A stretch of DNA of 64,000 nt from Anaerolineae bacterium. Its GTDB lineage: Bacteria; Chloroflexota; Anaerolineae; Promineifilales; Promineifilaceae. Positions 4,477-55,839 of this stretch are shown piece by piece. Numbering within the stretch: position 1 is the first letter of the stretch; every line of letters starts with the position of its first letter. A program made the position numbers and the translations under genes. The stretch lies in the NCBI GenBank assembly GCA_023382655.1, contig JAHDWK010000020.1:62001-126000 (forward strand), written 5' to 3'. The notes below the pieces were generated by a model. It was not told the origin of the DNA. It saw only the letters and a list, made by a program, of their open reading frames with translations, and did no database searches.

Positions 4477-4495
4477 GAATAAGGAGTGGGAGCCT

Positions 4496-4722: not shown

Positions 4723-4733
4723 AACTGCCAGCT

Positions 4734-5387: not shown

Positions 5388-5576
5388 CATCATAACCTCC
5401 CAGCTTATCAACTGCCGGCTCATTTACTTGTAGCGAGCAGTTCAAGTGAGCAACATTATGCAAAGTACGTCTCTATTATACATATTTTTGCATTTATGTT
5501 AAGACCTGAAAAGTGATTTAGGGTGGGTAAGAAAGGGCTATTGACGACGGCCGTACTCCCTGCCCATAATGCAACC

Positions 5577-5855
5577 ATGTTTCAAGCGATACGACAAGTG
5601 ATATTTGCGTTTACGGCCGTGTGTTGCGGCCTGATTGGGTTGTTCTGGCTCTGGTTTATGTATCAGTTTAGCCTGAGGTGGCTAGATGCCAATGGCGAAG
5701 TGGGGCCAATGGTGGGGGCGACCGTTGTCTTTGGCCGCGAAGGCGCTTTTTGGATCGGCGCAGTCGCCGTTGGTTGGCTGCTGCTGGCGCTGTTTTTTGG
5801 TTTTATGCAGTGGCGTGTTTCGCGTAATCTGTCATCCGTTACCCGTGAGCCATAA
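5577..5855 (+). CDS. Small two-helix membrane protein
   Basis: About 92 residues with two hydrophobic segments (roughly 5-30 and 60-83) and a short polar loop between them. The ATG after GCAACC is preferred over an upstream in-frame GTG because the extra residues look non-coding. I do not recognise the family. The last residues (SSVTREP) are encoded by the start of a repeat built from CCGTTAC-like heptamers, the same pattern as at other gene ends in this window. Confidence 0.5.
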   Translation: MFQAIRQVIFAFTAVCCGLIGLFWLWFMYQFSLRWLDANGEVGPMVGATVVFGREGAFWIGAVAVGWLLLALFFGFMQWRVSRNLSSVTREP

Positions 5856-5893
5856 TCCGTGAGCAGAAGTCCGATTACGGATTACCGATTACC
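5836..5893. repeat. Heptamer-type repeat at the ends of two convergent genes
   Basis: Imperfect units such as CCGTTAC, CCGTGAG, CCGATTA and CGGATTA alternate across the junction of two convergent genes. It supplies the last codons of both, SSVTREP on the plus strand and KVIGNP on the minus strand. It belongs to the same class as the elements near 30100, 33154, 35130, 43310 and 45148. Confidence 0.65.
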
Positions 5894-6804: not shown

Positions 6805-6819
6805 GATCTTCTCCTTGTA

Positions 6820-6878
6820 GTTTGTAGTGGGCGATTTATCGCCTGTTGTTTTACACCGCTCAAGCGGTTACTACAAAC
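6820..6878. repeat. Cruciform mini-element: outer stem with two inner hairpins
   Basis: A 9-base outer inverted repeat (GTTTGTAGT at 6820-6828, ACTACAAAC at 6870-6878) encloses two perfect hairpins, GGCGATTTATCGCC (6830-6843) and ACCGCTCAAGCGGT (6855-6868). A second element of the same plan lies at 49384-49440 with different inner sequence. It lies between the aminotransferase stop and the 5' end of the next minus-strand gene. Confidence 0.8.
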
Positions 6879-6920
6879 ATGCCTCTTTGTACGCAGCCTG
6901 CAATAATGGGTTGCATCCTT

Positions 6921-8168
6921 TCACCTCAACATAGCGGTCACGGCCGTAAACGCCCCATCCAATCGCTGCAATACCTCACCGACCTGGGTCTCGTTAATAA
7001 TCAGCGGCGGCAGCATTTGAATGACTGATGTGTCATTGTTGGCGTAGATGATCAGCAGCCCGGCCTCAACACCCGCCACCGTCATCATTGGCCCCAACAG
7101 TGGATTTGTCAGTTTCAACCCCATCATCAGCCCCTTTTGCCGCACCTCATGGATGATTGCCGCGTGTTTGTGTTGCAGTTCGGCAAATCCCCCGGCGAAA
7201 AGTTCGGCCATGTGGCGTACGTGGGGCAGGAATTCCAGCTCTGTCAAAATATCCAGCATGGTTAGCGTCACCGCACAGCCCAATTCTGCACCGCCACAGG
7301 TGGAAATGTGAATGAAAGGGTTTTCGTGCATAACCGGATTGAGATGATCGCGGTAGAGCGTGGCCGACATAGGATAGAGGCCGCCAGACAGTCCTTTGCC
7401 GCTGACGATGATGTCGGGGATGACGCCATACAGGTCAATGCCCCATATCTGGCCGCAACGCCCCAGCCCTGTTTGCACTTCATCCACAATCATCACCGCC
7501 CCGTATTGGTCGCAAAGCTGGCGCACCCCGGCGAAAAAACCCTCCGGGGGAATGGCAATGCCCAGGGTAGCCGGGATGGTTTCAAAGATGACGGCCGCTA
7601 CCTGTTCATTCATCGCCTGCGCCAATGCCGCCAGATCGCCAAAAGGCACCTGGATGAAATCGGCTGACGATGAGTGAAAGGGTTCCCGATATTGGGCATC
7701 GCCGGCAGCCAATGCCAGCCCGGTGTGCCCATGATAACCACCCTGGGCGGAGATAATGGTTTGGCGGCGGGTGTGGGCGCGGGCCAACTTGATAGCCATG
7801 TCTATAGCCTCGCCACCGGAAACGCCAAAGATGACATGGTTGATGTCGCCGGGTGACAATTGCGCCAAACGAGCGCCCAGATTGGCGCGGGCTTCGCTGA
7901 CCAGGTGGTGGTTGCCAATGTCTAGCTCGGTCACGGCCGTTTGCAGAGCCTCGACCACACGCGGATGCCGGTGCCCCAGGTTGAACACACCGCCGTTACT
8001 GTGGCAGTTAATCAGGCGACGGCCGTCAATATCCCACATATAAATCCCTTCCCGTTTCCCTAAAATAAAATTGATGCCCACCCGTTCATAAAACGCCACC
8101 TTGCCACTGGAAACATGCGCGGCAAAGCGGTCGGTAATGACAGATTTTTCATCTTGAGCAATGTACAT
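6921..8168 (-). CDS. Class III PLP-dependent aminotransferase
   Basis: A 415-residue protein with the fold-type I class III pattern: phosphate-loop GVSGGEA (115-121), stacking region YHGHT (145-149), cofactor-binding VDEVQTG with Asp229, and the Schiff-base lysine in SGKGLSGG (Lys258). These enzymes move an amino group from an omega-amine or amino acid to a keto acid. Candidates include ornithine, putrescine or beta-alanine type substrates; the sequence does not decide. It is the last gene of a leftward set with a kinase-like protein, a GPH symporter and a nitrilase-fold enzyme. That suggests processing of an imported amine or amide (inference). Confidence 0.9.
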   Translation of the reverse strand: MYIAQDEKSVITDRFAAHVSSGKVAFYERVGINFILGKREGIYMWDIDGRRLINCHSNGGVFNLGHRHPRVVEALQTAVTELDIGNHHLVSEARANLGARLAQLSPGDINHVIFGVSGGEAIDMAIKLARAHTRRQTIISAQGGYHGHTGLALAAGDAQYREPFHSSSADFIQVPFGDLAALAQAMNEQVAAVIFETIPATLGIAIPPEGFFAGVRQLCDQYGAVMIVDEVQTGLGRCGQIWGIDLYGVIPDIIVSGKGLSGGLYPMSATLYRDHLNPVMHENPFIHISTCGGAELGCAVTLTMLDILTELEFLPHVRHMAELFAGGFAELQHKHAAIIHEVRQKGLMMGLKLTNPLLGPMMTVAGVEAGLLIIYANNDTSVIQMLPPLIINETQVGEVLQRLDGAFTAVTAMLR

Positions 8169-8186
8169 CTTGTTTCTCCTCTAAGA

Positions 8187-8249
8187 AATCCACAGATTAC
8201 ACAGATTCCGCAGATTAAAAATCTGTGCCATCTGTGTAATCTGTGGATT
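8187..8249. repeat. Long palindrome with 20-base arms
   Basis: The arms 8187-8206 and 8230-8249 are perfect reverse complements made of the alternating words AATC, CACAGATT and ACACAGAT. The space between them holds degenerate copies of the same words. It fills the whole gap between the kinase-like gene and the aminotransferase. A decayed relative (CGCAGATTTTGGGGATT...) lies at 9265-9340 upstream of the kinase-like gene. Confidence 0.85.
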
Positions 8250-8250
8250 A

Positions 8251-9240
8251 TTAACGGCGGACTTTGCCGGGCAGGATGTAGGGGTATTGTTTGCGAAATA
8301 CCCGGTTGTGTAAAAACCGATCCAGCTGGCGCATGGAGGCGTATAAAGACCAGATCTGTTTGTCTTCCCGGTAATAGGCGGCCACTTCATCCGGGGTGAT
8401 GGGGTGTAAGCCCAGGTCTGCTAATTCCTGCTCAAAAAACTGATTGGCCGCTTGAATGAAGTCTGGTATCAGATGAGTTAGCTGCTCTTTATACAAGTTA
8501 GCCAACAGGTCAATAATCACGCGCCGTAAATCGTAATAACGGCCGACGACATCGGCTAAAAAGAAACGGCGCAATATCCAGCGCAGGAAGGAGGGCGCGG
8601 GGCGCAGAAACAGTTCGGCGTTAATCTGTTCCACACTGCTGATGCGGTAAAGGGGCGTGCTGGTGTCAATATAGAGCAGGGTTGACTGCGTGGGGTCAAA
8701 GTGGGCGATGGCCCAATTGGAGATTTGGCCGTCCAAAGCTACCTGGTAGGTTGTTTGCGATTGGTTGTAGACCCACACTTTGTTCATTTCCCGCAAAACC
8801 TGGTTGAATACGATGGCGGCGTCATTGGGGGAGAGGGAGGCCAGGGCGTGGTTGCCAATGGCACGGACGTCCACCTTTTGCTGCATGATGTAGAAGATGG
8901 GAGGGCGGTTTTTATTGCTCAGGGCGGCATAACCGTGTGCGGGTAGTTTGATGCCAATTTCATCTTCCAGCAACCAATGGTATTCGTTGTAGGCGGTGAG
9001 GTAGGTGGTTAGTTCTACGGCCGTTTCAAAGACTGCCATCCGTTTCAGGGCCAAACCGGCAAAGGGGGCCACTTTAATCTCAAAAACCGTGCTGATTTCG
9101 CCATACCCCAACACTTGGCTGGGGATAGCATGTGTTTCTGGTGCGGCCGGATTCAACTCATCCTCAAAGCGGCGCAGCAGATCCATATCTATCTCCACCC
9201 CGGCCGGATGGCGAATATAATGTTCCCTAGAGAATGTCAT
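8251..9240 (-). CDS. Kinase-like fold protein, possibly DUF6206 family
   Basis: About 329 residues from the ATG giving MTFSREHYIRHP. The frame is open for another 43 codons, but those run through repeat sequence. GYGEISTVFEIK resembles a glycine-rich loop, LALKRM supplies a possible ATP-binding lysine, and NWAIAHFD followed by LLYIDTSTP resembles a catalytic and DFG-like region. This suggests a protein-kinase-like or small-molecule phosphotransferase fold. From memory it resembles DUF6206, a family without known function. Its position between a symporter and an aminotransferase points to a metabolite substrate rather than a protein one (inference). Confidence 0.55.
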   Translation of the reverse strand: MTFSREHYIRHPAGVEIDMDLLRRFEDELNPAAPETHAIPSQVLGYGEISTVFEIKVAPFAGLALKRMAVFETAVELTTYLTAYNEYHWLLEDEIGIKLPAHGYAALSNKNRPPIFYIMQQKVDVRAIGNHALASLSPNDAAIVFNQVLREMNKVWVYNQSQTTYQVALDGQISNWAIAHFDPTQSTLLYIDTSTPLYRISSVEQINAELFLRPAPSFLRWILRRFFLADVVGRYYDLRRVIIDLLANLYKEQLTHLIPDFIQAANQFFEQELADLGLHPITPDEVAAYYREDKQIWSLYASMRQLDRFLHNRVFRKQYPYILPGKVRR

Positions 9241-9405
9241 TCTCTTGCACCTATCCTCAAAATAGAACCCGGATGAACGCAGATTTTGGGGATTTTCAAG
9301 ATAAAAATCCGGGAGTATCTTAGAAATCGGGGAAATCTGCACCCTATTTTCTCTAGTTGCGATGGACAAATGTCAATGATTCACTCTTGGAGATAGTACC
9401 ACACC

Positions 9406-10800
9406 TTAAGCAGTGCCCTTGCGGGCGGCCAGTTCGGCGCGGATTTCGGCGTGGCGTTGGCGCGTGATGGGGTATTTGTAGGCAACGGGCAAACTGAGCA
9501 GCAAAATGACCAGTGGCGCAAAGCTGATAAACAGGCGGAACGACAGCAAAACTGTATCGTTTTGCACCGGAAATGGTTCACCCGGCACGGCCGGGACGTA
9601 ACGGACAACTTGCAAAACCAGATTGGAAATGGCCAGCCCCAGCGAGATGCCCAATTTCTGCAAGAAGACAAAAAAGCCGTAGTAAACCCCTTCCCGGCGC
9701 AGACCGGTGTTCAATTCATCCACATCTACCACATCGGGCAGCATACTCCAGGGAATGAGGTAGGCCACGCCAGCGCCAGCCCCGGCCAACACCGCCAATA
9801 CGGTGAGCAACAGCATTTGCCCTGGCTGGACGAAGAAAATGAATATCTCAATCAAAATCCAAAAGCCGACGCCGCAAAAATAGGCGTGTCGTTTGCCAAT
9901 GCGCCCGCTCACTTTGGCCCAAAAAATGAGGGATACAAAGATGGAAATTTGCAGGGACATGGCCAGAATAATGAAATTGTCTTCGGCGTTCATCCAGTAC
10001 CGCACATAAAAGAGCATGTTGGCCTGGATGAATTGGATGGCTAACCAGGAGAGGAGGTAGATGCCGGTGACCATAAGGAACGCCCGATTGCCAAATGCGA
10101 TCTTGAAGCCTTCAACAAATCCTGGCTCGTCTTCATCTTCGGCTTTTTGGTGGGTTTCTTTGGTGGCGGCGAAGGTAATCCAGTTGGTGACAATAATAAC
10201 CGCGCCCAACAGTGCGGCGCTCACCATGTAGCCGGTGGTAATGTCGGGGAAGGATTTTAAGATGGTGTCGTGTAGCAGCAGGGCGAACATGCCACCTAAA
10301 ATGGAGAAGCTGAAACGAAATGTGTTCAGGCTGGTGCGTTCATCGTATTCCGGGGCGATTTCCGGGGTGAGGGCGGTGTAAGGCACGTTGACACAAGTTA
10401 ACGAGGTGTCTAGGAGCAGGGCGACCACCAAGTAGTAGATGAATAACCAGGCCGTACCCAGATCGGGCACCAGCCATTGTAGGAACCAGGCCAGGCCAAA
10501 GGGAATCGCGCCAAACAGCAGCCACGGCCGTCGGCGTCCCCAGCGTGTATTGGTGCGGTCTGTCAGGGTGCCAATGATGGGATCGTTGAGGCTGTCCCAC
10601 ACTTTGACAATGAGAAAGATAATGGCCGCCAGATACGGTTCCAGACCAGCCACATCCAGCAAAAAGACATTCAGGAAGAAGCCGGAAATGGTCGCCACCA
10701 GCGCCGGCCCCACATCCCCCACGCCATAGGCTAACTTACGGACAAAACTCAGCTGCGGTGATTTCACTTCACTCGCCGGTAATTGATGTGCGATTGTCAT
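9406..10800 (-). CDS. GPH-family (MelB/YicJ-like) cation:glycoside symporter
   Basis: A 464-residue protein with about 12 membrane segments. The N-terminal half carries the family pattern: KLAYGVGDVGPALV, then VKVWDSLNDPIIGTLTDRTNTRWGRRRPW, which contains the conserved Asp residues of the cation site and the R-W-G-R-R-R-P loop. The central loop is charged (AEDEDEPG). GPH members import sugars, glycosides or related organic solutes with Na+ or H+. The ATG third in a run (M-I-M) is used because the Shine-Dalgarno GGAGAG abuts the first. It precedes the kinase-like and aminotransferase genes in one direction and follows the nitrilase gene. Confidence 0.85.
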   Translation of the reverse strand: MTIAHQLPASEVKSPQLSFVRKLAYGVGDVGPALVATISGFFLNVFLLDVAGLEPYLAAIIFLIVKVWDSLNDPIIGTLTDRTNTRWGRRRPWLLFGAIPFGLAWFLQWLVPDLGTAWLFIYYLVVALLLDTSLTCVNVPYTALTPEIAPEYDERTSLNTFRFSFSILGGMFALLLHDTILKSFPDITTGYMVSAALLGAVIIVTNWITFAATKETHQKAEDEDEPGFVEGFKIAFGNRAFLMVTGIYLLSWLAIQFIQANMLFYVRYWMNAEDNFIILAMSLQISIFVSLIFWAKVSGRIGKRHAYFCGVGFWILIEIFIFFVQPGQMLLLTVLAVLAGAGAGVAYLIPWSMLPDVVDVDELNTGLRREGVYYGFFVFLQKLGISLGLAISNLVLQVVRYVPAVPGEPFPVQNDTVLLSFRLFISFAPLVILLLSLPVAYKYPITRQRHAEIRAELAARKGTA

Positions 10801-10826
10801 GATCATCTCTCCTTTTATAAGATGGC

Positions 10827-10897
10827 TAACCGCGAAGGGCGCGAAGGACGCGAAGAAAAAGTATAAAACTTTGCGTTCTCAGCGTTCTTTGCGGTTA
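10827..10897. repeat. Palindromic repeat of GCGAAG words
   Basis: One arm reads TAACCGCGAAG followed by two further GCGAAG words; the other reads GCGTTC twice and then TTTGCGGTTA. Together they form an imperfect 30-base stem. It lies in the gap upstream of the symporter gene and downstream of the nitrilase stop. It belongs to a different sequence class from the palindrome at 8187 but has the same layout. Confidence 0.75.
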
Positions 10898-10908
10898 AAA
10901 ACGGAGCA

Positions 10909-11970
10909 TTACAGCCATACATTCACCAATGCTGCCTTTTCCACATGAGGTGCGGCATAGGTCACGCCCTCATGCACCATAATTGTTTGACCGTCGCCGA
11001 CCTGATCCCACATACGGCCGTGAAAAAAAACATGCATCCCGGCCACCGCGTCCGTTATTCCGATGCGCCCCGGCAGGGCATACTTCAACCACGCTTCACG
11101 CTCGGTAATCGCGCCCACATCTTGCGGGCTGAAATCGGATGGTCTGGTAGCGGTACGATAACCAGGCCAGGGTTCGTGCCAATGCTCCTGATTGTTGGGG
11201 ATGGCAATGAGGGCTACATCCTGCGCGGCCAGCGCTTCGTAGGCAGCGGAATACCAGGAGTCGGCGCAGATCAGAACGCCCAATCGGCCGGCCGGGGTGT
11301 CATAAACCGGTAAATCGGCTGGCGTGCCTGCCTTGAGGAAGCCGGTTTCGGCAAAGACGGGGGTGTTTTTGCGTGTGATGTGGGGATGGAGACGGCCGTC
11401 CCCATCAAAGACACAGGCGATATTTTGCAGCCAGCCGGCGCCGGGTTGCAGACGGCCGTCCACAATGGTCGGCTCCGGCAAAAAAATAGACCCGGCCACA
11501 ATGGTCACGCCATAGTGCCGGGACAGATGGGCAAAGGTCTCCTGATACAGGTGGGCCATCGGGTGTGCTTTCAGGCGAAACAGAGCATCCACGCTGCGGT
11601 TTTGCCCTCTGGCCTGTAACAGCGTGGCCAGAAAACGGAGCAGGTTATGGCGCACCATACATTTGCTCGCCTGCGCCGTTGTCTCTGCCTGGTAAATGCT
11701 GGCATGTTCGTCCACGATGAGCAGCCAGGTGCCAATGTTTTCGGGGAAGATGACGATGGTGTCCGGTTGCAGCCAGCCCTGTGCCTGGGCGGCCGCCAGG
11801 TAACCATCCAGCCGGGTTTGGAACTGCACGGCCGTGGCGTAGTGCACGGCCGTCATATAAGGCTGTATGCCCACCAGATTGCCCCGCCCCCGATTGACGC
11901 CATAACTTTGCACCGCTTCAATGAACAGGTCTGGCTGAACGGTTACGGAAAGTCGTGTTAACTGTTCCAT
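10909..11970 (-). CDS. Nitrilase-superfamily carbon-nitrogen hydrolase
   Basis: A 353-residue protein carrying the Glu-Lys-Cys triad of the superfamily: Glu77 in FPENIG, Lys201 in TRKNTPV and Cys235 in GVLICADSWYS. The fold hydrolyses amides or nitriles, or transfers acyl groups to amines. An insert of about 50 residues (roughly 85-140) makes it longer than typical amidases of about 270, and no membrane segment is present. It is the first gene of the leftward cluster and is separated from the symporter by a palindrome. With an aminotransferase downstream, release of an amine from an imported amide is a reasonable guess. Confidence 0.85.
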   Translation of the reverse strand: MEQLTRLSVTVQPDLFIEAVQSYGVNRGRGNLVGIQPYMTAVHYATAVQFQTRLDGYLAAAQAQGWLQPDTIVIFPENIGTWLLIVDEHASIYQAETTAQASKCMVRHNLLRFLATLLQARGQNRSVDALFRLKAHPMAHLYQETFAHLSRHYGVTIVAGSIFLPEPTIVDGRLQPGAGWLQNIACVFDGDGRLHPHITRKNTPVFAETGFLKAGTPADLPVYDTPAGRLGVLICADSWYSAAYEALAAQDVALIAIPNNQEHWHEPWPGYRTATRPSDFSPQDVGAITEREAWLKYALPGRIGITDAVAGMHVFFHGRMWDQVGDGQTIMVHEGVTYAAPHVEKAALVNVWL

Positions 11971-12001
11971 TATCTCACCTCAACTGCTACCTAAAACAGA
12001 A

Positions 12002-12913
12002 TCAGGCTAGCTGTGGCTTAGGCACAGTGGGGTTTGCCAGATGTAATTGCACAAATAACCAGGGCGCCCCTAAGCTGATCCATAAGCCCAGTAACCCGTA
12101 ACGTATGAAGCGGAGCAGGTAATATAAGCCGCCATCCGTTTCGGGGAAGAGTGCTGATAAGCCCAGATAGATACCCATCATCACGGCCGTGCCAATGACA
12201 TAGCGCAGCAAACGCAACCACCACACGCCACTGGCCGAGAAGGGCACATACCGCCGCGCGATTGCCAGTCCGCAGCCAAACCCGGCCATCACGGCCGTGG
12301 CCGACACCGATGAATCATCCGCATGAAAAGCCACCGCCATCAGCACCGGCACGAAGAAAGCGACCGCCAGTTGCTGCCAGAGCGGCAATCCGCCCAGCCA
12401 CGGTTCAACGCGGGGATCAAGCAGCAGATAGACTGCCAGAATGACGATGCCCACCGTCCAACCGGCCAACACCTGATGGGGAAAATGCACACCCAGAAAT
12501 ACGCGGGAAAAGCCGATCAGCAGCATGAACGCGAGGGCAATGCCCCAGAACCATTTTTTGCCAACCTGCCAGGCCAGCACCCCCCACACCATCACACTCG
12601 TCTGGGCATGGCCGCTGGGCATACCGCTCCCGTCTGCTTCTGATAGTTTGACGGTGGAGTCGAGGAAAAACGGCCGTGGTTCCTGGAAAAGTTCCTTGAG
12701 TACCGGGTTCAGATACGCTGACAACAAGAAGGCAAGGCCAACTCGTGCCCCAATGACCATGTCTACAGACCAGACGAGGAAGGGGATGGCCAGCAAGTAA
12801 AACATCTCCTCGCCCATAAAAGTGATACCCCGAAAAAAGCCATCAATGATGGGGCCGTGTAGTTGTTGCAGGGTCATGATCCATTTCAATTGCAATTCAA
12901 AAATCGTATCCAT
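12002..12913 (-). CDS. PAP2-family membrane phosphatase
   Basis: A 303-residue protein with several membrane segments and the three phosphatase motifs: K73-x6-R80-P81 (KELFQEPRP), PSGH at 99-102, and SR-x5-H with His143. The third motif reads HFPHQ, so the usual Asp of lipid phosphatases is Gln147, the form known from glucose-6-phosphatases. The catalytic His pair is intact, so activity is expected on a lipid or sugar phosphate at the membrane. The C-terminal 130 residues add extra hydrophobic helices. A strong AGGAGG precedes the ATG. The first 17 bases overlap the end of the next gene, so the two are coupled. Confidence 0.85.
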   Translation of the reverse strand: MDTIFELQLKWIMTLQQLHGPIIDGFFRGITFMGEEMFYLLAIPFLVWSVDMVIGARVGLAFLLSAYLNPVLKELFQEPRPFFLDSTVKLSEADGSGMPSGHAQTSVMVWGVLAWQVGKKWFWGIALAFMLLIGFSRVFLGVHFPHQVLAGWTVGIVILAVYLLLDPRVEPWLGGLPLWQQLAVAFFVPVLMAVAFHADDSSVSATAVMAGFGCGLAIARRYVPFSASGVWWLRLLRYVIGTAVMMGIYLGLSALFPETDGGLYYLLRFIRYGLLGLWISLGAPWLFVQLHLANPTVPKPQLA

Positions 12914-20439: not shown

Positions 20440-23400
20440 TTACCCAACTGTGTCTGCCCCACATTGTGGCCACAATTGCACGATTTCGCGGTGGAAGGGC
20501 ACGGCCGTCAAAAACCGCTCTCTCATCTCCACATCCACAATACCGGCGGCCCGTTCTTGCAGCAGGTGGTAGGCCTCAGTGAGGATGGTGGCGGCACGGC
20601 CGTCATCCGCCGCTTGCAACACCTGGTAACAGGTCAGGTAGACGCGCAGCGGTTCATCCGTACCGTGCAGGTTGCCCGTTTGCAGGTAGGTGAGAATGGT
20701 ATTCACGTGGGCCACGGCCGTGTCCAGATTCCCCTGCGCCAGCGCCAGCCGCGCCAGCCCTGCCAGCGACTCCTGCTCCCAATTCAAATTACCCACTTCC
20801 CGGCACAATGCCGCTGCCCGCTCATAGGCTGCCGCCGCTTCTGCCCACTGGCCCAACGCCACCTGCGCATGGCCGATAGTACGCCAGGCCAGACTACCCT
20901 CTGAGCGCAGCCCCACTTTTTCGGTAATTTCCACTGCCTGCTGCGCGTAAATCAATGCCTGCGCCTGGTCTCCTTGCTGGTGGTGTAGCAGAGAGAGGTA
21001 AACCAGTACCTCTACTTCACTTTGGGCATTATTCGTTTCCCGGTATTTGCTGAGTAGAGGCTCATACAGAGTCATCGCCTGGGCATAATCACCTTGATAC
21101 AAGGCGAGCGTGCCCAGGTTGAGCAGAGACAGATTTTCGCCGTAACTGTCCGACATTTCCTGGCGCAGACGCAGCGATTGCCGTTGGTATGTTTCGGCGA
21201 TGCGGTATTGTCCCAGATGGGCCGCCACTAACCCCAGGTTGCCTAATACAAAACTTTCATTGCGCCGGTCGCCGATGGCCTGCATAACAGATAAAGCCGC
21301 CTCATAATGTGTGCGGGCGGTGGCATAGTCGCTTTGGGAGAGGGCCACCACGCCCAGATTGTTCAGTAAGATGCTCTCACCGCGCCGGTTGTTGGCCTGC
21401 TGTTTCAGGGTAAGCGACTCCTGGTACTGCTGCTGTGCTTCGGCATAATCCCCTTTGGCCCAGGCCACATTGCCCAGGTTCATCAGGCAGTCGGCGGCCA
21501 GGTCGGTCTGGCGGGCACGGGCGGCCAGGTCGTGGGCGTGGCGGAAACAGCGGCGCGCCTTCTCGTAGTCTGCCTGGCGGAAGAGGGCGCGCCCCCATTG
21601 CAAATAGGCGGCGGCCTCTTGCTCGGCGTGGCGGGCCAGGCGGGACATGGCCAGGGCTTGTTGGGCGGCTTCGCAGGCGGCGTCGTAATCGCCGGTGACT
21701 TCGGCGTAACGGGCCTGGCGCAGAGCGACATCGGCTTCTTTGCTGTGGTCGCGTAGCAGACGGGCCAGCCGGTGTAGGGCGGTCAGGTCGGTCTGCTGTT
21801 GGCTGCGGTCGCCTTGCAGGTCAAATAGTTGTTCGCGGTGTTGGTGCAGGTCGTAGAGACGGCCGTACTCCCCTTCCGGCATCAGCGTCAATGCCCGGCT
21901 CAAGTAATCCACCGCTTCTTCATTGGCAAAGCGGTCGGCGGCGGCCAACGCCGCTTTGACCAGGTATTCTTGTTTTTTGGGCAGGTTTTCGCTACGGTCG
22001 TAATGAAACGCCAGCAAATCTACAAACCGTTCCGCATCCAATTCCTCGATATACTGCGCCAACTGTTCGTGCAAAATGGCGCGGGTGGCATAGGACAGGC
22101 TGGTGTAGGTCACTTCCTGGGTGACGATGTGTTTGAACATATAGACCAGTTCTGGCTCTGGCTGGTCCACAGGCGTCAGGTCTAGCTTTTCCAGTTCCAC
22201 TAGATGGCTGCGCACCTGCTCGGCCGTACCCAGTTCCGGGTAATAACCCAACAGCCAGCCAAAACGGAAGAGGCGGCCGATGATGCTGGCGATTTTCAGG
22301 GTAAGTTTCTGGTCTTCGTTCAACTGGTCAATGCGGCTGAGGATGAGGCTGTGCAGACTGCTGGGCAGTTCCAGATTTTGCAGGGCGGCGGCGTCGCGCA
22401 AATTGAGGCCACGATCATGCAGGTAGTTGATCAGCTCTTCCACGTAAAAAGGATTGCCCTGGGCGCGCTCGATAATCTGGCTGATGAGGCTGGCGGGTAC
22501 GGCCGTGGCGCTGGCGGCAAATAGCTGTTTGAGTTTGATCTGTGTTAATTCCTGGGCTTCGGCAGGAGAGAGTTCGGTGAGGGGCACGGCCGTGAAATGA
22601 GGCAGCGCTTCCAGGCGAGGCTTTTGCAGGCGCGTGTATTCCGGCGGCCGGTAAGCCATGATGATCAGCACTGGCAGAGGCACAATCACCCGGCCCAGCG
22701 CTTCCAGCAAATCGTGGGAAATGGGGTCAATCCAGTGCAAATCTTCAAAGACAAACACCAGCGCCGCCCCCTCGGCCCGCGTCTGCCCGGCTCGGCTGTG
22801 CATACAGGCCAGCAGCAATGCCTCCAACGCCGAGCGGCGCGCTTTGGCGTCCAGCGATTGGGTGAAGGTGTTTTCGGTGACCGGCAGTCCTAAAACGGCA
22901 GCCAATAGCGGGATCGCTTCCTGCCGCTCTGGGGCCAGCCGCGCCACCTGCGCCTGCAAGGTTTGCATTTGCTGCGCCAGCGAATCGGCGGGATTGATGC
23001 CCAGGAAGGCAAACCAGATGGGCAGCCAGACCAGGTAGGGGATGTTCGCGCCGTAAGATTGGCACTCGCCCAGGTAAATGGGCAGACCCTCGGCTTCGGC
23101 CAGCCGCGTGATTTCGTTGACCAGGCGGGATTTGCCCATGCCGGCTTCGGCCGTAATGCCAATGATCTGGCCGTGTCCCTGGCGGGCCAGCGCCAGCTTT
23201 TGCCGGATGCGCTCTAACTCGGCGCGGCGGCCGACCAGGGGAATGCTGTAATCGGGCGCTTGCAGGAAGCCGGTTTGCGGCCGCCGCCGCCGGGTGAGGG
23301 AGAAGACGGGCACGGTTTCGCTCTTGCCTTTGAGAGGCACGGCCGCGACCGGTTCCAGGTAATAACCGCGCCGCAGCAGCTTTTCTACCGTTTCGCTGAC

Positions 23401-24576
23401 GAGGATTTGGCCCGGTTCGGCGCGTTCCATGAGGCGGGCGGCCAGATTGACATGATCGCCCAACACGCCATAGGTGCGCCGGGATTGGCTGCCGTAGGAA
23501 CCGGCGCGCATGACACCCCGGCTCATGCCAATTTGTACGGGCGCAGCCGCCAGGAAGGGTAGTTTTTCCAGTTCCAGGGCGGCGTTGGCGGCGCGGAAGG
23601 CGTCGTCTTCATGGGCAATGGGTGCGCCAAAGGAGGCATAGAGGTAGCTGCCTTTGTCACCGATGGTCAGTTGTAGCAATGCGCCGCCGTATTGGGTGAG
23701 GATGTTTTGCACGCGGTGGACAAAATCGTCTAGTTTGTGGGCAGCGTCGGGATCATCTTCGTAGTTGAGGCCGGTGAAGCGGAGGAAGAGAGCGACTGAC
23801 GGCCGTAACTCCGTCAAAAACTGTCCCTGCCCGGTCTGTTCGCGCTGGTAGACGGCCGTGAGCAGCCAGGGGCGGGTCTGGGCCAGCGTCAGGGCGTCGG
23901 TGGGTAGGGGGGGCCATTGCTGGGCGGGTACGGCCGTCAGCAGATCGGCAATAACGGCAAAGGCGTAGCCGGAACTGGCCTCACGGCGCCATTCGGCCAG
24001 GGTGACGGCTTTGCCCAATGACTCCACAGTAGCCTGGTCGGCCAGGACTTCGCCGGGTTGGGCCAGCTTTTCGGCGGCGGCCAGGCGGGTTATAGTGCGC
24101 CCGGCCAGGGTATCGAGCAGTTGGATGGTTGGGTCGCCCACCAGAAAACGACGGGCGCTGCCGCTGGTGACGGCCGTTTTCATCGCCAGCCGCGCCGTAT
24201 GCCCGTCGGCCAGGGTGATTTCGCTAAAGGCGGCCATGACGGTCTGCAAGGCCAGTGCCGCCGCCACTGCCCGTTTGCCGGCCGACCCGTGCCGTTCATC
24301 AAACCAGCAGGTGATGGAATCCCCGGCAAAACTGATGACGCTGCCGCCGAAATACTCTACCTGGGCGATCAACGCGTCATAGACGGTGTTCAGGTGGCGG
24401 GAGAGTTCTTCCGCGCCGCGCCGGGGGCCGAAGAGCAGCGCCAGCCGTTCGGTGAGGGGGGTGAAGCCGGAGATGTCGGCAAATAGGGCGGCGCCGACGG
24501 CCGTGTCTGGCAAGGTAATACCCTGCCACAGGGCCAGGCGGCGATCAACGGGTATGTAGGCGGCAAATGTGTCCAT
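20440..24576 (-). CDS. Tandem class III nucleotide cyclase / STAND ATPase / TPR protein
   Basis: About 1378 residues, soluble. Cyclase domain 1 (25-200) has metal Asp34 in LFADISGFT and Asp86 in AGDS. Cyclase domain 2 (258-428) keeps GDKG but has Arg266 where the first Asp belongs, so it is likely a regulatory half. A STAND/AAA ATPase follows (Walker A AEAGMGKS near 476-483; VFEDLHWID as Walker B), then a winged region. About 400 residues of TPR repeats (such as LNNLGVVALSQSDYATARTHYEAAL) end the chain. The C1/C2-plus-ATPase plan is that of soluble adenylyl cyclase. It probably makes cAMP on binding a partner through the TPRs. The chosen ATG matches the paralogue at 51107. Confidence 0.9.
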   Translation of the reverse strand: MDTFAAYIPVDRRLALWQGITLPDTAVGAALFADISGFTPLTERLALLFGPRRGAEELSRHLNTVYDALIAQVEYFGGSVISFAGDSITCWFDERHGSAGKRAVAAALALQTVMAAFSEITLADGHTARLAMKTAVTSGSARRFLVGDPTIQLLDTLAGRTITRLAAAEKLAQPGEVLADQATVESLGKAVTLAEWRREASSGYAFAVIADLLTAVPAQQWPPLPTDALTLAQTRPWLLTAVYQREQTGQGQFLTELRPSVALFLRFTGLNYEDDPDAAHKLDDFVHRVQNILTQYGGALLQLTIGDKGSYLYASFGAPIAHEDDAFRAANAALELEKLPFLAAAPVQIGMSRGVMRAGSYGSQSRRTYGVLGDHVNLAARLMERAEPGQILVSETVEKLLRRGYYLEPVAAVPLKGKSETVPVFSLTRRRRPQTGFLQAPDYSIPLVGRRAELERIRQKLALARQGHGQIIGITAEAGMGKSRLVNEITRLAEAEGLPIYLGECQSYGANIPYLVWLPIWFAFLGINPADSLAQQMQTLQAQVARLAPERQEAIPLLAAVLGLPVTENTFTQSLDAKARRSALEALLLACMHSRAGQTRAEGAALVFVFEDLHWIDPISHDLLEALGRVIVPLPVLIIMAYRPPEYTRLQKPRLEALPHFTAVPLTELSPAEAQELTQIKLKQLFAASATAVPASLISQIIERAQGNPFYVEELINYLHDRGLNLRDAAALQNLELPSSLHSLILSRIDQLNEDQKLTLKIASIIGRLFRFGWLLGYYPELGTAEQVRSHLVELEKLDLTPVDQPEPELVYMFKHIVTQEVTYTSLSYATRAILHEQLAQYIEELDAERFVDLLAFHYDRSENLPKKQEYLVKAALAAADRFANEEAVDYLSRALTLMPEGEYGRLYDLHQHREQLFDLQGDRSQQQTDLTALHRLARLLRDHSKEADVALRQARYAEVTGDYDAACEAAQQALAMSRLARHAEQEAAAYLQWGRALFRQADYEKARRCFRHAHDLAARARQTDLAADCLMNLGNVAWAKGDYAEAQQQYQESLTLKQQANNRRGESILLNNLGVVALSQSDYATARTHYEAALSVMQAIGDRRNESFVLGNLGLVAAHLGQYRIAETYQRQSLRLRQEMSDSYGENLSLLNLGTLALYQGDYAQAMTLYEPLLSKYRETNNAQSEVEVLVYLSLLHHQQGDQAQALIYAQQAVEITEKVGLRSEGSLAWRTIGHAQVALGQWAEAAAAYERAAALCREVGNLNWEQESLAGLARLALAQGNLDTAVAHVNTILTYLQTGNLHGTDEPLRVYLTCYQVLQAADDGRAATILTEAYHLLQERAAGIVDVEMRERFLTAVPFHREIVQLWPQCGADTVG

Positions 24577-24750
24577 CGTTTTGACCTGCCCATTTGTACT
24601 GCAAGCGGGCGGTAAATTCAACCGGGGCGACGTGAAAATTGGCGCGCCGCCAAATGGTTTTTCGCACGGCCGTGATCCTCGGCGTAAAATCTGCTGCCTG
24701 GAGATGGTATTGACGGCCGTGACGTGGTAGGCAAGCAGGTCTCGGTGAGC

Positions 24751-24845
24751 AAAGGTGGGGCGGCACGGTGGGGACAGCATCCCTACGGGCTGAGAGGCGG
24801 CCGCAGCACAACCACAGCAACCAGAAGACCGCGCCAGAGCAGGGA
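24751..24845. repeat. REP-like repeat, left flank of the RAYT gene
   Basis: It starts AAAGGTGGGGCGGCACGGTG and ends AGAAGACCGCGCCAGAGCAG. The same two end blocks, in the same order and orientation, recur at 25576-25640 to the right of the transposase gene. The middle differs. Confidence 0.75.
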
Positions 24846-49587: not shown

Positions 49588-51072
49588 ATGAAATCATCCC
49601 GTTGGTCTCACCTGGTTTCACTGACATTCTTCAGCCTCTTGATCGTATTTGCCGCCCTCTTTATCCTCTGGTCAAACGCTCATGCCGCCCGGCTGATGGA
49701 TGGCGCCGGTAACTGCGGTAACTTTGCCGATGCCATTCAACTGGCGCAGGACGGCGATGAAATTACCCAAATGTTGCCCGCCAGAGATTCTGGTGGCGCG
49801 GTGATCACAAAAAATCTGCGCATCAGCGGCGGCTGGTTTCCTACGCTAAACTGTGAGGAACCGAATCAGGTTTTTACCGACCCGGTGGAGTTTTTTAGCT
49901 ATGGTTTCACCTACAACGCCCCGGCTGAACGCTCCGAACTCAACCACAATGGCTCTGTGTTAGTAATTGAGGACGCAAATGACCCCGGCTTTCCCAATCT
50001 GAGTAAGCTGGTCATAGATAACATGATCTTCCGCACATCGGGATCGCCCTTAAATGGCGGCGGTATTACCGGGATCATTAGCGATCAGGCCGAGATTCAT
50101 CTGGATAACAATCTCTTGAATGGTAATTTTGTCTTAAACAATGGCGGCAGCCTTCGGCTGGCATTACATGGCCAATCTCATTTGTTTATTGAAGATAGCC
50201 AGTTTATCACCAACACGGCCGATGTAAACGGCGGTGGGCTTTACGTGGAATTATGGGACAACTCGCGTTTAACGATTATCAACAGCGCCTTTTACTCTAA
50301 CACAGCCTTGAATGGGGGCGGACTGGAAGTTCACGTTCATGACGGCAGCCAACTCATTATTAGCAATACACACTTTACCGGTAACAATAACTACAGCTCG
50401 TTGGGCGTGGGCGCTGGTGGGCGTATCTTTGTCAATGGGGGTCACGTGGCCATCAACGGCAGCACTTTTCAGAATAATGTGGCTGGTGAAAGAGGCGGGG
50501 GATTATACGTGCAAATGGATGGCGGCAATGTTAGCATTGTCAATAGCCAGTTTAGTGGCAATGAGGCCAGCACCGCCGGTGGTGGCTTGTATGTAGAAAG
50601 TGTGGGGAACGCACCGGCTCACGTGAGCCTGGTTAATACTCATTTCGCCGGCGACACGCCCAACGCTTATCAATTTGTGCAAAGTGGGAGTGGGACATTG
50701 CACACGGCCGTACTCGATCACACCACCTTCCTACCCGTCATCCTCGACAATCCGACTTATTCAGAACAGGCCCGCATCCTGAGCATTACTCTGGACGAAA
50801 ACTTCAATTATCTGGTCGAATTTGAGACTAATTTTCAACCGGACGTCCAGCATGTACACGTTCACTTTTTCTTCGACACGGTAGCTCCTGAAGATGCCGG
50901 TGTACCCGGCAGCGGCCCCTGGATTTTGTATGGCGGCAGTTCCCCCTTTACCGGCTATAACTATGCCGACCGCCCGGATGGGCCTTTTGGCGCTGAAAAA
51001 ATGTGCGTTTTGGTAGCCAACCCTGACCACTCGGTGCGCCTGAACACCGGGAACTGCGTCAAACTTCCATAA
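49588..51072 (+). CDS. Secreted right-handed beta-helix protein
   Basis: A 494-residue protein with a signal peptide (hydrophobic to about residue 33, cleavage near AHA). A beta-helix follows with at least six coils of the polymorphic-membrane-protein type (NNGGSLRL, GGGLYVEL, GGGLEVHV, GGGLYVQM, GGGLYVES, about 40 residues apart) and a C-terminal beta domain. Such proteins bind or cleave polysaccharides or act as adhesins; no lyase active site was recognised. A strong GGAGAG precedes the ATG. Only one ACGGCCGT in 1.5 kb suggests recent arrival or a constraint. Confidence 0.8.
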   Translation: MKSSRWSHLVSLTFFSLLIVFAALFILWSNAHAARLMDGAGNCGNFADAIQLAQDGDEITQMLPARDSGGAVITKNLRISGGWFPTLNCEEPNQVFTDPVEFFSYGFTYNAPAERSELNHNGSVLVIEDANDPGFPNLSKLVIDNMIFRTSGSPLNGGGITGIISDQAEIHLDNNLLNGNFVLNNGGSLRLALHGQSHLFIEDSQFITNTADVNGGGLYVELWDNSRLTIINSAFYSNTALNGGGLEVHVHDGSQLIISNTHFTGNNNYSSLGVGAGGRIFVNGGHVAINGSTFQNNVAGERGGGLYVQMDGGNVSIVNSQFSGNEASTAGGGLYVESVGNAPAHVSLVNTHFAGDTPNAYQFVQSGSGTLHTAVLDHTTFLPVILDNPTYSEQARILSITLDENFNYLVEFETNFQPDVQHVHVHFFFDTVAPEDAGVPGSGPWILYGGSSPFTGYNYADRPDGPFGAEKMCVLVANPDHSVRLNTGNCVKLP

Positions 51073-51106
51073 AGTTGGAGGGTTGGCATGGTGCAGATGC
51101 CACCCC

Positions 51107-54100
51107 TCATGCCGCCACCACGTTCTTAAACTTGATGCCGCCGCGCACAATTTTGCTTGCACCCGTCAAAGTAAATCCGGCGCGCAATAAACCATAGGCC
51201 TGTAAGTAATATAAAGGAACCATCACGGCCGTCTCCGCCACCAATACCCTGTCTGCTTGATGATAGAGATTGAGCCGTTCTTGATGGTCTGTTACCCCAG
51301 GTATGCGTTCAATGATCGTGTTAAACTGTTCAACATCCCAACCCAGGCCACTGAATGGCCCTTCTGTTTGTCCGGCTATACTTAAAATATCATTTGGGTC
51401 AGGATAATCCAGACCAATTCCCATCAATACCATATGGGCTGCACCTTGCTGCATCAGGGATAGTGCCTCTACAGAAGGCACATTTTCTAAGACCGTCACA
51501 TCAACACCCAGATGTTCACGCCAATTTTCCACCAGAAAAGCGGGAGTTTGTTTAAACCCGGATGGCGCAACCAGCCGAATGTCTGGCAGAATCGCCAGAC
51601 CATCTGGCAGGGACTTCTCAAGCAAGGTTTTAGCAGTCTGCACCGCGAAAGGCAGACTTATCTCTGGTGAATGTCCGGCCATGCCCGGAGGCGCTAACCC
51701 CCCGGCTGCCGCTCTCTGGACGCCATTCCAAACAGATTGAACGAGTGCTTTTTTATCAATACTCTGGGCAAATGCCCGGCGCAATAACGGCCGGTCAAAC
51801 GGTGGGCAATGACAGGCAAATCCCAATATAAATGTGGATAAATCCTGCACCAGATATGTTTCTGCCGGGTAATGGGTAAAGAGGTCCGCCTGATCATCTA
51901 CACGACACCAGTCAATGTGACCCGCCAGGTATTCTTCAAAACCAGGATGTATAAATTTAAGGACGATGTTTTCCAGATTACCGGCCATAAATCGGTGATA
52001 GGTAGGGTTCCGCACCAGCCGGATCTCTTCGTCGCTCCCGTCGTCGCTCTGGCGGCCGCTCTCGCCAATTTTCAGTTGAAACGGGCCGTTACTCACCAGA
52101 TTTTGTGGCTCGCTCCACCTGCTGCCTGCCTGTTGAATGAGGTGGGCCGGTTGGGGGTAGGTAATGGGGTCAGCCAATAAGTAGAGAAAATAATGCGAAG
52201 GCGATTCGAGGCTGATTTCCAGTGTTAAGTCATCTATGGCTTTGATGCCGATTAAAGCGGGGTCAGCGGTTTGCCCATGATAAAAAGCCGCCGCGCCGGC
52301 CACCAAAAAAAGCTGGTAAGCTAAATTCGCTTCGGTTTGTGGGTCTAAATTGCGCCGCCAGGCAAAAACAAAGTCATGCGCCGTCAGGGGATGTCCGTCG
52401 CTCCATTGCAGGTTTGGCCGCAGCCTGAAAAGATATTGTTTACCACCAGCCAGCACTTCCCATCGTTGGGCCACCGCCGGAATCAGGTTCCACTCGTCGT
52501 CAACTTCCACCAACCCTTCAAACAGATTTGCCAGAAGCTGTGAGGTTTCACGGGCATCAGCCTTGCCGGGGTCGAAATGAGCATATTTTTTGATAATCCC
52601 CCAATGAAAGAGACGTTCCTCATCAGACGGTATGCCTTCGGGCTGCGCGCTTTCAATCGTTAGTCGGGCGCGTTCAAACAGGGTGAAAGCCATTTCATAG
52701 TAATCTTGGGCTTTGCTGAAATCCAGGGAATTGGATCGGATTTGGGCCAGTTTCAAGTAGATTTTGGCTTGTTGCTCAATGGTGGAGATGTCTACGGCCG
52801 TGTCTGTCTGGCCCAACATGGCTAAGATTTTGTGGTACAGCGCTTCCGCCTCTTCATTGGCATAGAGTAAACGGGACTGATCGGCGGTATGGGAGTAATA
52901 ATAAATCGCCTTGTCCAGCGCTTCCGCCTGCTCCCAATGATAGGCCAGGAAGGCCACCTGCTCGGCGATGGCCGCCGGGAACAACTGCTCAAATGCTTCG
53001 GCCACCTGCCGGTGGTAGGCGCGGCGGCGTTCGTGCAGCAGCGTGCTGTAAGCCCCCTCCTGAATGAGCGCATGGCGAAAGGTGTGCGCCGCGCCCAGGT
53101 CAGCCTGGTCAGGGCGGATGTAGTCCTGCCCTTCCAGTTCCGCCAGCAGGTTGTCCACCTGCTGCTCGGCGGTGCTGATGCGGGCCAATACCTGATCCAG
53201 AAACGTTTTGCCGATCACCGCCGCCAGTTGCAGCGTGTGGCGCGTCTCCACCGCCAGCCGGTCTAGCTGCGCCAGCAGTAATCCCTGCACCGAGTTGGGT
53301 AAATCCAGGGCGTCCAGTTCCACCTGTGCCAGGTCATCGGCTCTGGTTAGCTGCAAGGTGCGCACCAGTTCCACCAGGAAGAGGGGGTTGCCGCCGCCTT
53401 TGGCCACCAGATAATCCACTACCGGCGGCGGCAGGTGGGGGGCCTGGGTGGTGATCAGAGCGGCGGCGGCGGCAGCGCTGAGTGGGGCCAAAGTGAGGCG
53501 GGTGAGGGGCAGCACGGCCGTGTCCCATCCCCAGACCATTTCCCAGGCGCGGGTCTCCATCTCCGGGCGCAGCGCCAGCAGCAGCAGCAAGGGCAGTTCG
53601 GCCGTCAGGGGGGCGATGCGCTCTACCAGTTGCAGCGACGTGGGGTCGGCCCATTGCACATCATCCAGCACCAGGACAACGGGATAGTGGCGGCACAACT
53701 GGCGCAGCAGGTCAGGGATGAGTTCAAACAACTGCCAGCGGCGGCTCTCCCCGGCCAACCCTTCCAGGCGGGCGGCCACTTCGTCGGGCAGGGGCAGATT
53801 CATAAACGCCGCCAGGTAGGGATAGACGCTTTCCAGCCGCGCCGCGCCAAATAGCTCTGCGCAAAAGTCGCGCAGACGTTGGCTGGTCTGGTGCGGCGTG
53901 GCCGCGGGCGGCAGGTTGAGCAGGTCGCGCAGCAGTTCGATGAAGAGGTAGCCGGTGATGGTGTGGCCGTAGGCCAGGCTGATGCCGCTGGCCCATATGC
54001 CCCCGGTGCGGTCAGATTGCCAGGCCGCTTCCGTTTCGGTGCGCACATTGTCCAGCAGCAGCGTTTTGCCCTGCCCCACTTCGCCGATGATGGCGAGGAT

Positions 54101-55690
54101 GCCGCCGGTGTTCGGTAATCGGTAATCGGTAATCGGTGATCGGTTACTGATTACCGATAACCGATTACCGATTACCTCTAACTCTTCGTCGCGGCCAAAC
54201 AGGCGCTCGACGCGGCGGGGTTGGCGGGTGGGTGGTTCGTAGGTGATGGCGGTGTAGATGTGGATGGGGGCGGCTTTGCCTTTGACCTGGATGAGGCCCA
54301 GGTCGGTGACTTTGAGGGCGGGGCTCAGCTGGCTGCGCACGGCCGTGTCCAGCAATAGTTGGTCAGCGGCCGCGTTTTGCATCAGGCGGGCGGACAGGTT
54401 AATGGCGTCGCCCATGGTGGTGTAGTCGTGGCGGTGGGGGGAGCCAACCGGCCCGGCAAACACGCGCCCGCCACTGATACCAATGCGCTGCATGGTGATG
54501 AAGGGCAGGCGGCCACATTCCGCCTGCAAATCCAGGGCGCAGCGGATGGCCCGTTCTTCCTGCTCTTCCACACTGCGCGGCGCGCCAAAGATGATGTGCA
54601 GCAGGCTGCCTTTGTCCCCGGTGATGAGGCGGTTGAGACGGCCGTCGTACCGCCCCACAATCTCTTGCGCCAGGCTAAAATAGCGTTGTAATTTGGCGGT
54701 AATATCCGGGTCAGCGTCGTAATCCAGCCCATGAAACTGCACAAAGAGGCTCACCACCGGCTTCAGTTCGGCCACCTGCGTTTGCCCCGCTTGCAGCGTC
54801 TCCACAATGGCGCGGGGCACATAAGCCGCCAGTTCCGCTACCAACTCTTCCGCTGTGGCCGGTCTCCCCCCTTCTGCTATGGCCGGTCTCCCCTCTTCTG
54901 CTGTGGCCGGTCTCCTGACCGTGCCACCCGGTCTTTCTGCTATGGCCGGTCTCCCCCCTTCTGCTGTGGCCGGTCTCCCGACCGTGCCACCCTCTTGCTC
55001 TCCCGACCACGCAATTTCCAGCGGCGGCCAGGGTTTGGCGCGAGCAACGCGGCGCAGTTTCCCCACCACCGCCACCCCCTCGCGCCATGCCTGCACCGTG
55101 ACCACATCCCCCACCACCTGCAAGGTGGCCGCGTCGGCCATGATGTCGCCCGGCTCGGCGTGGTGTTCATTGTCGGCCATGCGGTCCAGCGTGGCCCCGG
55201 CCAGCACATCTTCAAAGCCATAAGCAGGCAGCCCCAGGTTAAACCGTTTCACCGGGCCATACGTGAGGCCGATTTTCATGCGCAGGGTGACGGGGCCGAT
55301 GGGGGTGGGGATACGGCCGTGCTGCTGCATGACCCGCTGCATCCGTTGGGCGGCAGTGAGGGCGCGGTGGACAACGGCCGTGTGCCGGCTCCCTTTCTCT
55401 CGCCCAAACCAGACAATCAGGGCGTCGCCGCCAAACTTGATGACGCTGCCCCGGTAACGATGAATCTGGGCGATGAGCGGCGTGAAGACCGAATCCAGAG
55501 CGCGGGTCAATTCTTCCGCGCCATGATCGGCCTGTAAACCCTGGGTCAGCGCCTCTGTCAGCGGCGTAAAACCGGAAATGTCGGCGATGAGGGCCACGCC
55601 ATCGCTCGCCAGCGGCGCGCCGGTCAGGATATGATTTACCCGGTCATGAGGGATGTAGGCGGCTAAGGAGGCAATGAGGTCGGCGGTCAT
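51107..55690 (-). CDS. Tandem nucleotide cyclase / STAND ATPase / oligopeptide-binding fusion
   Basis: About 1527 residues without signal peptide or membrane helix. Cyclase 1 (30-215) has Asp37 in LIADISGFT and Asp89 in FGGDA. A translated REP stretch follows (231-282). Cyclase 2 (about 312-490) has Gln where the first Asp belongs but keeps GDKG. A STAND ATPase follows (Walker A GEVGQGKT near 535; LVLDDVQWAD), preceded by a translated heptamer repeat (505-527). After an alpha-helical region, residues from about 1025 to the end are a complete SBP family 5 (OppA/DppA) domain: LFEGLVEV, LRPNLQWSDGHPLTAHDF, LVSNGPFQL and YYLQAYG. The sensor domain is thus intracellular. The ATG matches the paralogue at 20440. 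Confidence 0.9.
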   Translation of the reverse strand: MTADLIASLAAYIPHDRVNHILTGAPLASDGVALIADISGFTPLTEALTQGLQADHGAEELTRALDSVFTPLIAQIHRYRGSVIKFGGDALIVWFGREKGSRHTAVVHRALTAAQRMQRVMQQHGRIPTPIGPVTLRMKIGLTYGPVKRFNLGLPAYGFEDVLAGATLDRMADNEHHAEPGDIMADAATLQVVGDVVTVQAWREGVAVVGKLRRVARAKPWPPLEIAWSGEQEGGTVGRPATAEGGRPAIAERPGGTVRRPATAEEGRPAIAEGGRPATAEELVAELAAYVPRAIVETLQAGQTQVAELKPVVSLFVQFHGLDYDADPDITAKLQRYFSLAQEIVGRYDGRLNRLITGDKGSLLHIIFGAPRSVEEQEERAIRCALDLQAECGRLPFITMQRIGISGGRVFAGPVGSPHRHDYTTMGDAINLSARLMQNAAADQLLLDTAVRSQLSPALKVTDLGLIQVKGKAAPIHIYTAITYEPPTRQPRRVERLFGRDEELEVIGNRLSVISNRSPITDYRLPNTGGILAIIGEVGQGKTLLLDNVRTETEAAWQSDRTGGIWASGISLAYGHTITGYLFIELLRDLLNLPPAATPHQTSQRLRDFCAELFGAARLESVYPYLAAFMNLPLPDEVAARLEGLAGESRRWQLFELIPDLLRQLCRHYPVVLVLDDVQWADPTSLQLVERIAPLTAELPLLLLLALRPEMETRAWEMVWGWDTAVLPLTRLTLAPLSAAAAAALITTQAPHLPPPVVDYLVAKGGGNPLFLVELVRTLQLTRADDLAQVELDALDLPNSVQGLLLAQLDRLAVETRHTLQLAAVIGKTFLDQVLARISTAEQQVDNLLAELEGQDYIRPDQADLGAAHTFRHALIQEGAYSTLLHERRRAYHRQVAEAFEQLFPAAIAEQVAFLAYHWEQAEALDKAIYYYSHTADQSRLLYANEEAEALYHKILAMLGQTDTAVDISTIEQQAKIYLKLAQIRSNSLDFSKAQDYYEMAFTLFERARLTIESAQPEGIPSDEERLFHWGIIKKYAHFDPGKADARETSQLLANLFEGLVEVDDEWNLIPAVAQRWEVLAGGKQYLFRLRPNLQWSDGHPLTAHDFVFAWRRNLDPQTEANLAYQLFLVAGAAAFYHGQTADPALIGIKAIDDLTLEISLESPSHYFLYLLADPITYPQPAHLIQQAGSRWSEPQNLVSNGPFQLKIGESGRQSDDGSDEEIRLVRNPTYHRFMAGNLENIVLKFIHPGFEEYLAGHIDWCRVDDQADLFTHYPAETYLVQDLSTFILGFACHCPPFDRPLLRRAFAQSIDKKALVQSVWNGVQRAAAGGLAPPGMAGHSPEISLPFAVQTAKTLLEKSLPDGLAILPDIRLVAPSGFKQTPAFLVENWREHLGVDVTVLENVPSVEALSLMQQGAAHMVLMGIGLDYPDPNDILSIAGQTEGPFSGLGWDVEQFNTIIERIPGVTDHQERLNLYHQADRVLVAETAVMVPLYYLQAYGLLRAGFTLTGASKIVRGGIKFKNVVAA
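54111..54180. repeat. Heptamer repeat in frame inside a gene
   Basis: Four CGGTAATC-type units (one CGGTGATC) are followed by the complementary CCGATAA and CCGATTAC units. It is a multiple of three in frame and is translated as IGNRLSVISNRSPITDYRL just before the Walker A of the STAND domain. The same word family occurs between genes at 30100, 33154 and 43310. Confidence 0.85.
54855..54990. repeat. REP elements in frame inside a gene
   Basis: Two full 25-base REP palindromes (54903-54927 and 54966-54990) and three half units starting GTGGCCGGTCTCC or ATGGCCGGTCTCC. They are translated as repeats of GRPATAEE and GRPAIAE in the linker between the two cyclase domains. The REP is the one near the RAYT gene at 24901. 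Confidence 0.88.
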
Positions 55691-55839
55691 GGGTGTTACT
55701 GTAGCAAAAGAACGGGGGAGAACCAAGTGTTGTTGATTGACAAAACGGCCGTTTTCCTTCATATTTTGGGCAACTTATCCACTCGCGCGGCAGACGATCG
55801 TAGCTGTTCCTGTCGCCCAACAACATAAGGAGCTAAAAG

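Follow-up and report, generated by a model that had tools for sequence, protein, structure and literature searches.

Solute-binding proteins (SBPs) are textbook extracytoplasmic components. The transcription factors DsvR and SgrR are homologues, and DsvR is predicted to end in an SBP_bac_5 domain (PMC13060122). They set a precedent for SBP_bac_5 as a sensor inside the cell. Among class III cyclases, truncated sAC is reported to be about ten times as active as the full-length form, which is probably autoinhibited by a stretch C-terminal to C2 (PMC11006738). In comQXPA, a quorum sensing system of Bacillus, polymorphism affects the adjacent genes and the part of the receptor that recognizes the signal, and the output part is conserved (PMC5385187). 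Here we describe a gene in the window (the whole 64,000-nucleotide stretch of DNA analysed) that joins an sAC-like cyclase pair to a STAND ATPase and an OppA-like SBP (Table 1). No paper describing cyclase-STAND-SBP_bac_5 proteins was found in the open-access literature.

Table 1 Positions of the features discussed (window coordinates except for the two L097 rows; residues are those of the fusion protein)
Feature	Position	Strand	Remarks
Fusion gene: sAC-like C1-C2 cyclase, STAND ATPase, TPR-like arm, SBP_bac_5	51107..55690	minus	ORF open from 55762
Cyclase C1, residues ~40-215	55118..55645	minus	metal Asp D61, D113; K109 = sAC K95
Cyclase C2, residues ~306-505	54248..54847	minus	T448, N455, R459 = sAC T405, N412, R416; R378 replaces sAC K334
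STAND/AAA_16 NTPase, residues 521-727	53582..54202	minus	Walker A GEVGQGKT at 54062-54085; Walker B VLVLDD
STAND C-terminal arm/TPR-like region, residues 728-1040	52643..53581	minus	TPR matches in homologues
SBP_bac_5/OppA-like domain, residues 1046-1551, without signal peptide	51110..52627	minus	D1452 (51407-51409) = OppA Asp419
Convergent partner gene, secreted right-handed beta-helix protein, 494 aa, signal peptide	49588..51072	plus	34 bp from fusion ORF
Divergent cassette (mature beta-helix protein + SBP)	49700..52880		exchanged with respect to sister lineages; junctions at 52832-52903 (right, codons 954-977) and ~49650-49850 (left)
L097 CHAT-cyclase-STAND-SBP protein	277-7056	minus	
L097 2260-aa ORF, beta-helix similarity, hydrophobic N-terminal stretch	6995-12016	minus	same strand; after, and overlapping, the CHAT fusion

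The gene lies in a single unbroken ORF of 1551 aa (51107..55762, minus strand), and Met25 at 55690, the start taken by the sequence-only reading, appears from alignment to be the likelier start of the protein because the homology of most relatives begins there. Pfam places Guanylate_cyc in two stretches, AAA_16 at residues 521-727 (E 9e-13) and SBP_bac_5 at residues 1093-1463 (E 4.8e-54). In a PDB search both cyclase domains match sAC/ADCY10 and the C-terminal 460 residues match OppA/DppE. A scan of the protein for hydrophobic segments found none of signal-peptide or TM strength: the best 19-residue mean is 1.5, within the STAND domain, and the arm-to-SBP stretch reaches at most 0.6. By contrast, almost every stand-alone SBP encoded in the same genomes is strongly hydrophobic near its N-terminus, with a 15-residue mean that is mostly at least 2.3. 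Judged by its missing export signals, the fusion protein is predicted to be cytoplasmic. Pfam, PDB and hydrophobicity agree with the earlier proposal of one chain that carries cyclase domains, a STAND ATPase and a full SBP family 5 domain without a signal peptide. That proposal had also raised a frame error at about 52.6 kb, which could have joined two genes; this is excluded because the fusion is likewise a single ORF in collinear full-length relatives, which are spread over many families and at least two classes.

These relatives mark the fusion as old: they are 30-76% identical to the window protein and come from several Chloroflexota families, including some beyond the class Anaerolineae. 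With stringent cut-offs, the fusion was found in 13 of the 396 genomes sampled from the class and in about 10 of the 400 sampled from the phylum. The sequence-only reading had called the architecture rare, a description that is not supported: it recurs in ~3% of the sampled class and phylum genomes, and the family to which the window belongs also has versions with a kinase or BTAD. The cyclase versions fall into two subtypes, the sAC-type with tandem C1-C2, as in the window, and a single-cyclase type, most members of which have a canonical FADISGFT-like site. The same STAND-arm-SBP tail stands behind a BTAD regulator (L062, L070 and L089), a Ser/Thr kinase (L087, L088 and L090), a BTAD regulator plus kinase (L086 and L139) or a CHAT domain plus cyclase (L073). 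Because the tail is constant and the outputs are swapped, the SBP looks as an input domain should, and the arrangement fits a role for it as a shared input to varied outputs. One shorter protein (L098:5812-8574, plus strand, 921 aa) has a C1-like N-terminus, an arm and an SBP with no AAA_16 detected; this form could be due to an internal deletion, an assembly gap or a shorter version of the protein. Among the matches listed in a plasmid search there were solely stand-alone SBPs.

The active-site residues of the cyclase pair were compared with those of sAC. D61 and D113 in C1 correspond to D47 and D99, which we take to be the metal-binding Asp pair, and are invariant across the seven sAC-type rows of the alignment. 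N455 and R459 in C2, which align with the presumed transition-state residues N412 and R416, are invariant in all 15 rows. At the positions of K334 and T405, presumably the adenine contacts, the Thr is kept and the Lys is replaced by Arg throughout the branch. At the bicarbonate site, which we take to comprise K95, V167 and R176, K109 and V186 match the first two, and R176 aligns with an Ala in a locally uncertain part of the alignment. Since the catalytic residues match those of sAC, a single composite C1-C2 site is likely to be functional and ATP is predicted to be the likelier substrate; the product would be cAMP and not cGMP. Of the earlier claim of two cyclase domains, the count stands, as both are present, but the PDB matches and the residue alignment indicate that they most likely form one composite sAC-type site and not two enzymes. 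Between C1 and C2 lies an in-frame GRPATAEGG-like linker repeat (window:54848-54992), the length of which varies among sisters.

The central region has the Walker A (GEVGQGKT) and Walker B (VLVLDD) motifs and the AAA_16 match of a STAND protein, followed by a C-terminal arm, with TPR matches in homologues. Immediately before Walker A there is an in-frame palindromic CGGTAATCGGTAAT repeat (window:54106-54176), also of variable length among sisters. A paralogue in the window (20440-24780, minus strand, 1446 aa) has Guanylate_cyc, AAA_16 and TPR without an SBP, and its TPR repeats occupy the place held by the SBP in the fusion protein.

The AlphaFold model of the SBP domain (pLDDT 91.7) has the OppA/DppE fold, with DppE (TM 0.87), OppA and MppA as the best PDB matches, and the full fold and the conserved cores of both lobes are retained. 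OppA Asp419, which we take to bind the alpha-amino group of the peptide, corresponds to D1452 in the window protein. Of 32 fused SBPs, 24 carry D or E at this position, whereas the sisters L021, L022 and L025 have Ala. Several other OppA pocket residues (e.g. W416, R404 and R413) are lost in the window SBP. Given D1452 in the window and Ala in these sisters, the window SBP and its nearest relatives probably differ in ligand, and peptide binding is therefore not a property of every member of the branch. In a 60-SBP tree, with 35 fused and 25 stand-alone domains from the same genomes, all 35 fused domains fall on one side of a branch (bootstrap 97 / SH-aLRT 81), which indicates a common origin for them; nearly all of the 25 others have a lipoprotein-type N-terminus. 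The fused SBPs are preceded by intracellular domains in place of the signal peptide or lipobox of transport-type SBPs, and they differ from the SgrR family in having no HTH domain (NCBIfam SgrR model, E 0.094). A single conversion of an SBP domain into a cytoplasmic sensor appears to have been followed by its joining to at least four output types via a STAND switch. The single clade, the retained OppA fold and the exchangeable output modules support the earlier prediction that a cytoplasmic SBP would serve as the ligand-sensing input of the cyclase.

We consider it fairly probable that the protein is a soluble sAC-type adenylyl cyclase in which a STAND ATPase switch allows a cytoplasmic OppA-like ligand sensor to alter cAMP synthesis. 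The STAND switch and arm would restrain the C1-C2 catalytic pair. The ligand would be a peptide, either an imported or internally made oligopeptide or a muropeptide-like compound, and its binding would close the SBP. Closure would release or drive the ATP-dependent STAND switch, a direction of switching that we infer, and cAMP synthesis would change. The cAMP could then be read by the cell's many cNMP-binding proteins; the genome has 23 cNMP_binding matches.

The sensor could instead respond to a non-peptide metabolite such as a sugar phosphate, an amino acid or an opine-like compound, as proposed for SgrR, which is tied to sugar-phosphate stress. SBP family 5 also includes binders of nickel, opines, sialic acid and haem/glutathione, and sister proteins have Ala at the anchor. 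However, oligopeptide and murein-peptide binders are its nearest solved relatives, both in sequence and in fold, and the alpha-amino anchor Asp is retained in the window, so we regard this as credible but unlikely. That the SBP is a passive tether or interaction scaffold that binds no small ligand, for instance one that holds the cyclase at the cytoplasmic face of an Opp/Dpp permease, seems to us quite improbable: the full fold and the conserved cores of both lobes are kept, most fused SBPs retain D/E at the anchor (24/32) and the same domain works with unrelated output modules, although some OppA pocket residues are replaced and the Asp419 equivalent is missing in sister proteins.

The putative ligand-sensing cyclase is accompanied by a gene for a secreted beta-helix protein. 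This gene is convergent and adjacent in 12 of the 12 sAC-type fusions inspected, the window and distant members included, among them L160, the 5' end of which is cut and which is placed in the branch by its SBP alone. The spacing ranges from a gap of ~80 bp to an overlap of 40 bp, and no terminator was found between the two convergent genes. The beta-helix family was absent beside ~20 single-cyclase, kinase or BTAD fusions, some of which are in loci with short flanks; a CHAT-type locus, L097, has a co-directional 2260-aa beta-helix relative. The beta-helix gene is a conserved partner linked to the sAC-type branch, which suggests a functional link between the fusion and the secreted protein. 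Over all pairs, divergence of the beta-helix protein correlates with that of the SBP with a Spearman coefficient of 0.47, compared to 0.63 with STAND; since the former is no better than the latter, coevolution of the pair is unsupported. A Foldseek search with the partner gave no more than weak, generic beta-helix matches. Its last ~110 residues (window:50725-51072) are shared with numerous other proteins in the bacterial family and are possibly an anchor or sorting domain.

Comparison with the closest loci, L021 and L025, revealed an abrupt change within the fusion gene. The window protein is ~94% identical to theirs over the cyclase and STAND domains and 47% over the SBP, a region over which L021 and L025 share 86% identity. 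At the DNA level, syntenic flanks of ~88-94% identity enclose a divergent island at ~49.7-52.9 kb, and this ~3.1-kb segment covers the SBP together with the sequence for the mature beta-helix protein, leaving the signal peptide of that protein in place. Between the window and its sisters dS is 0.2-0.4 in cyclase/STAND and saturated beyond codon 955-985. The tail tree rejects a grouping of the window with L021 and L025 (AU p 5.7e-5) and the head tree rejects excluding the window from the L021/L022/L025 group (AU p 3.3e-4); a wider clade with all four congeners is not rejected by the tail tree (p 0.09). Rapid adaptive divergence of the SBP was excluded in favour of recombination on two grounds: the junction is also where synonymous sites abruptly become saturated, and the tree of the head disagrees with that of the tail. 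The break in ancestry and GC at 52.83-52.90 kb is an in-frame recombination junction within an already fused gene; because the relative L023 has a comparable GC drop, the drop was not used as sole proof of a foreign join. By these comparisons the fusion gene is a mosaic, in which the SBP and its beta-helix partner have been exchanged as one cassette between syntenic flanks. A similar exchange is seen in a second genus, where L145 and L091 share conserved flanks and C1-C2 and have a divergent beta-helix-SBP-STAND block. In the paralogues L035 and L040 of one genome divergence starts at about the same junction, but gradually. Searches of 396 genomes of the class and 52 of the family found no donor of the cassette. 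An assembly chimaera of two genomes is a very improbable source of the abrupt divergence at codon ~955, even though the source genome is a draft (64 contigs, contamination estimate 5.46), the relatives are metagenome assemblies and the donor allele was not found in the class and family genomes searched, because the 3.1-kb segment is flanked on both sides by ~88-94% identical, syntenic DNA and would therefore require two switches, the frame and domain order are unbroken and a comparable mosaic exists in a second genus.

Two neighbouring genes are also of note. The upstream gene (window:56139-60806, minus strand) strongly matches Avs2 anti-phage STAND proteins (PADLOC, 1821 bits), and it looks inserted next to the cyclase gene because by blastn 55.8-60.9 kb has no counterpart in the syntenic loci L021/L025. 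The gene at window:47705-49420 (minus strand) has two stretches of PF04199, a 'putative cyclase' family that is kynurenine-formamidase-like and unrelated to nucleotide cyclases.

A more far-reaching hypothesis, which we hold to be doubtful, is that the beta-helix protein and the SBP form a co-inherited specificity pair, in which pieces of the secreted protein, from the cell itself or its kin, would be imported and sensed by the cyclase. Exchange of the pair as a cassette with the output kept would then amount to peptide-based self-recognition or communication via cAMP. The fusion gives experimental access to the signals that STAND proteins respond to and a possible path from peptides to cAMP, and the locus is a testable example of sensor-plus-partner cassette exchange.

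The domain architecture is a variation on known kinds, and, as far as we searched, the partner and the cassette exchange are undescribed in the literature. The likeness to comQXPA is one of pattern only, a variable recognition part and neighbour with a constant output; the window genes are convergent and no signal-producing role is known for the beta-helix partner. Like sAC (ADCY10) and bacterial class IIIb cyclases, the window protein has a tandem C1-C2 with one composite site and an NTPase region behind C2, and it retains the metal Asp pair, Thr, Asn and Arg of sAC, with PDB matches in both domains. In contrast to sAC, it adds a C-terminal OppA-like SBP, has Arg in place of Lys334 and, in a locally uncertain part of the alignment, shows no counterpart of the bicarbonate Arg176. 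With SgrR and DsvR (HTH plus SBP_bac_5) it shares an SBP_bac_5 domain at the C-terminus of a cytoplasmic regulator, but its output is a cyclase acting through a STAND switch and its SBP is of the OppA/DppE type (SgrR model, E 0.09). The window SBP has the full fold and the Asp419-type anchor of OppA, DppE and MppA; unlike them, it is fused behind a STAND ATPase without a signal peptide or lipobox and belongs to a clade of its own, apart from the stand-alone SBPs of the phylum. Finally, the cyclase-AAA_16-TPR proteins of Chloroflexota, such as the paralogue in the window, have the same cyclase and STAND modules, but carry TPR repeats where the fusion protein carries its SBP.
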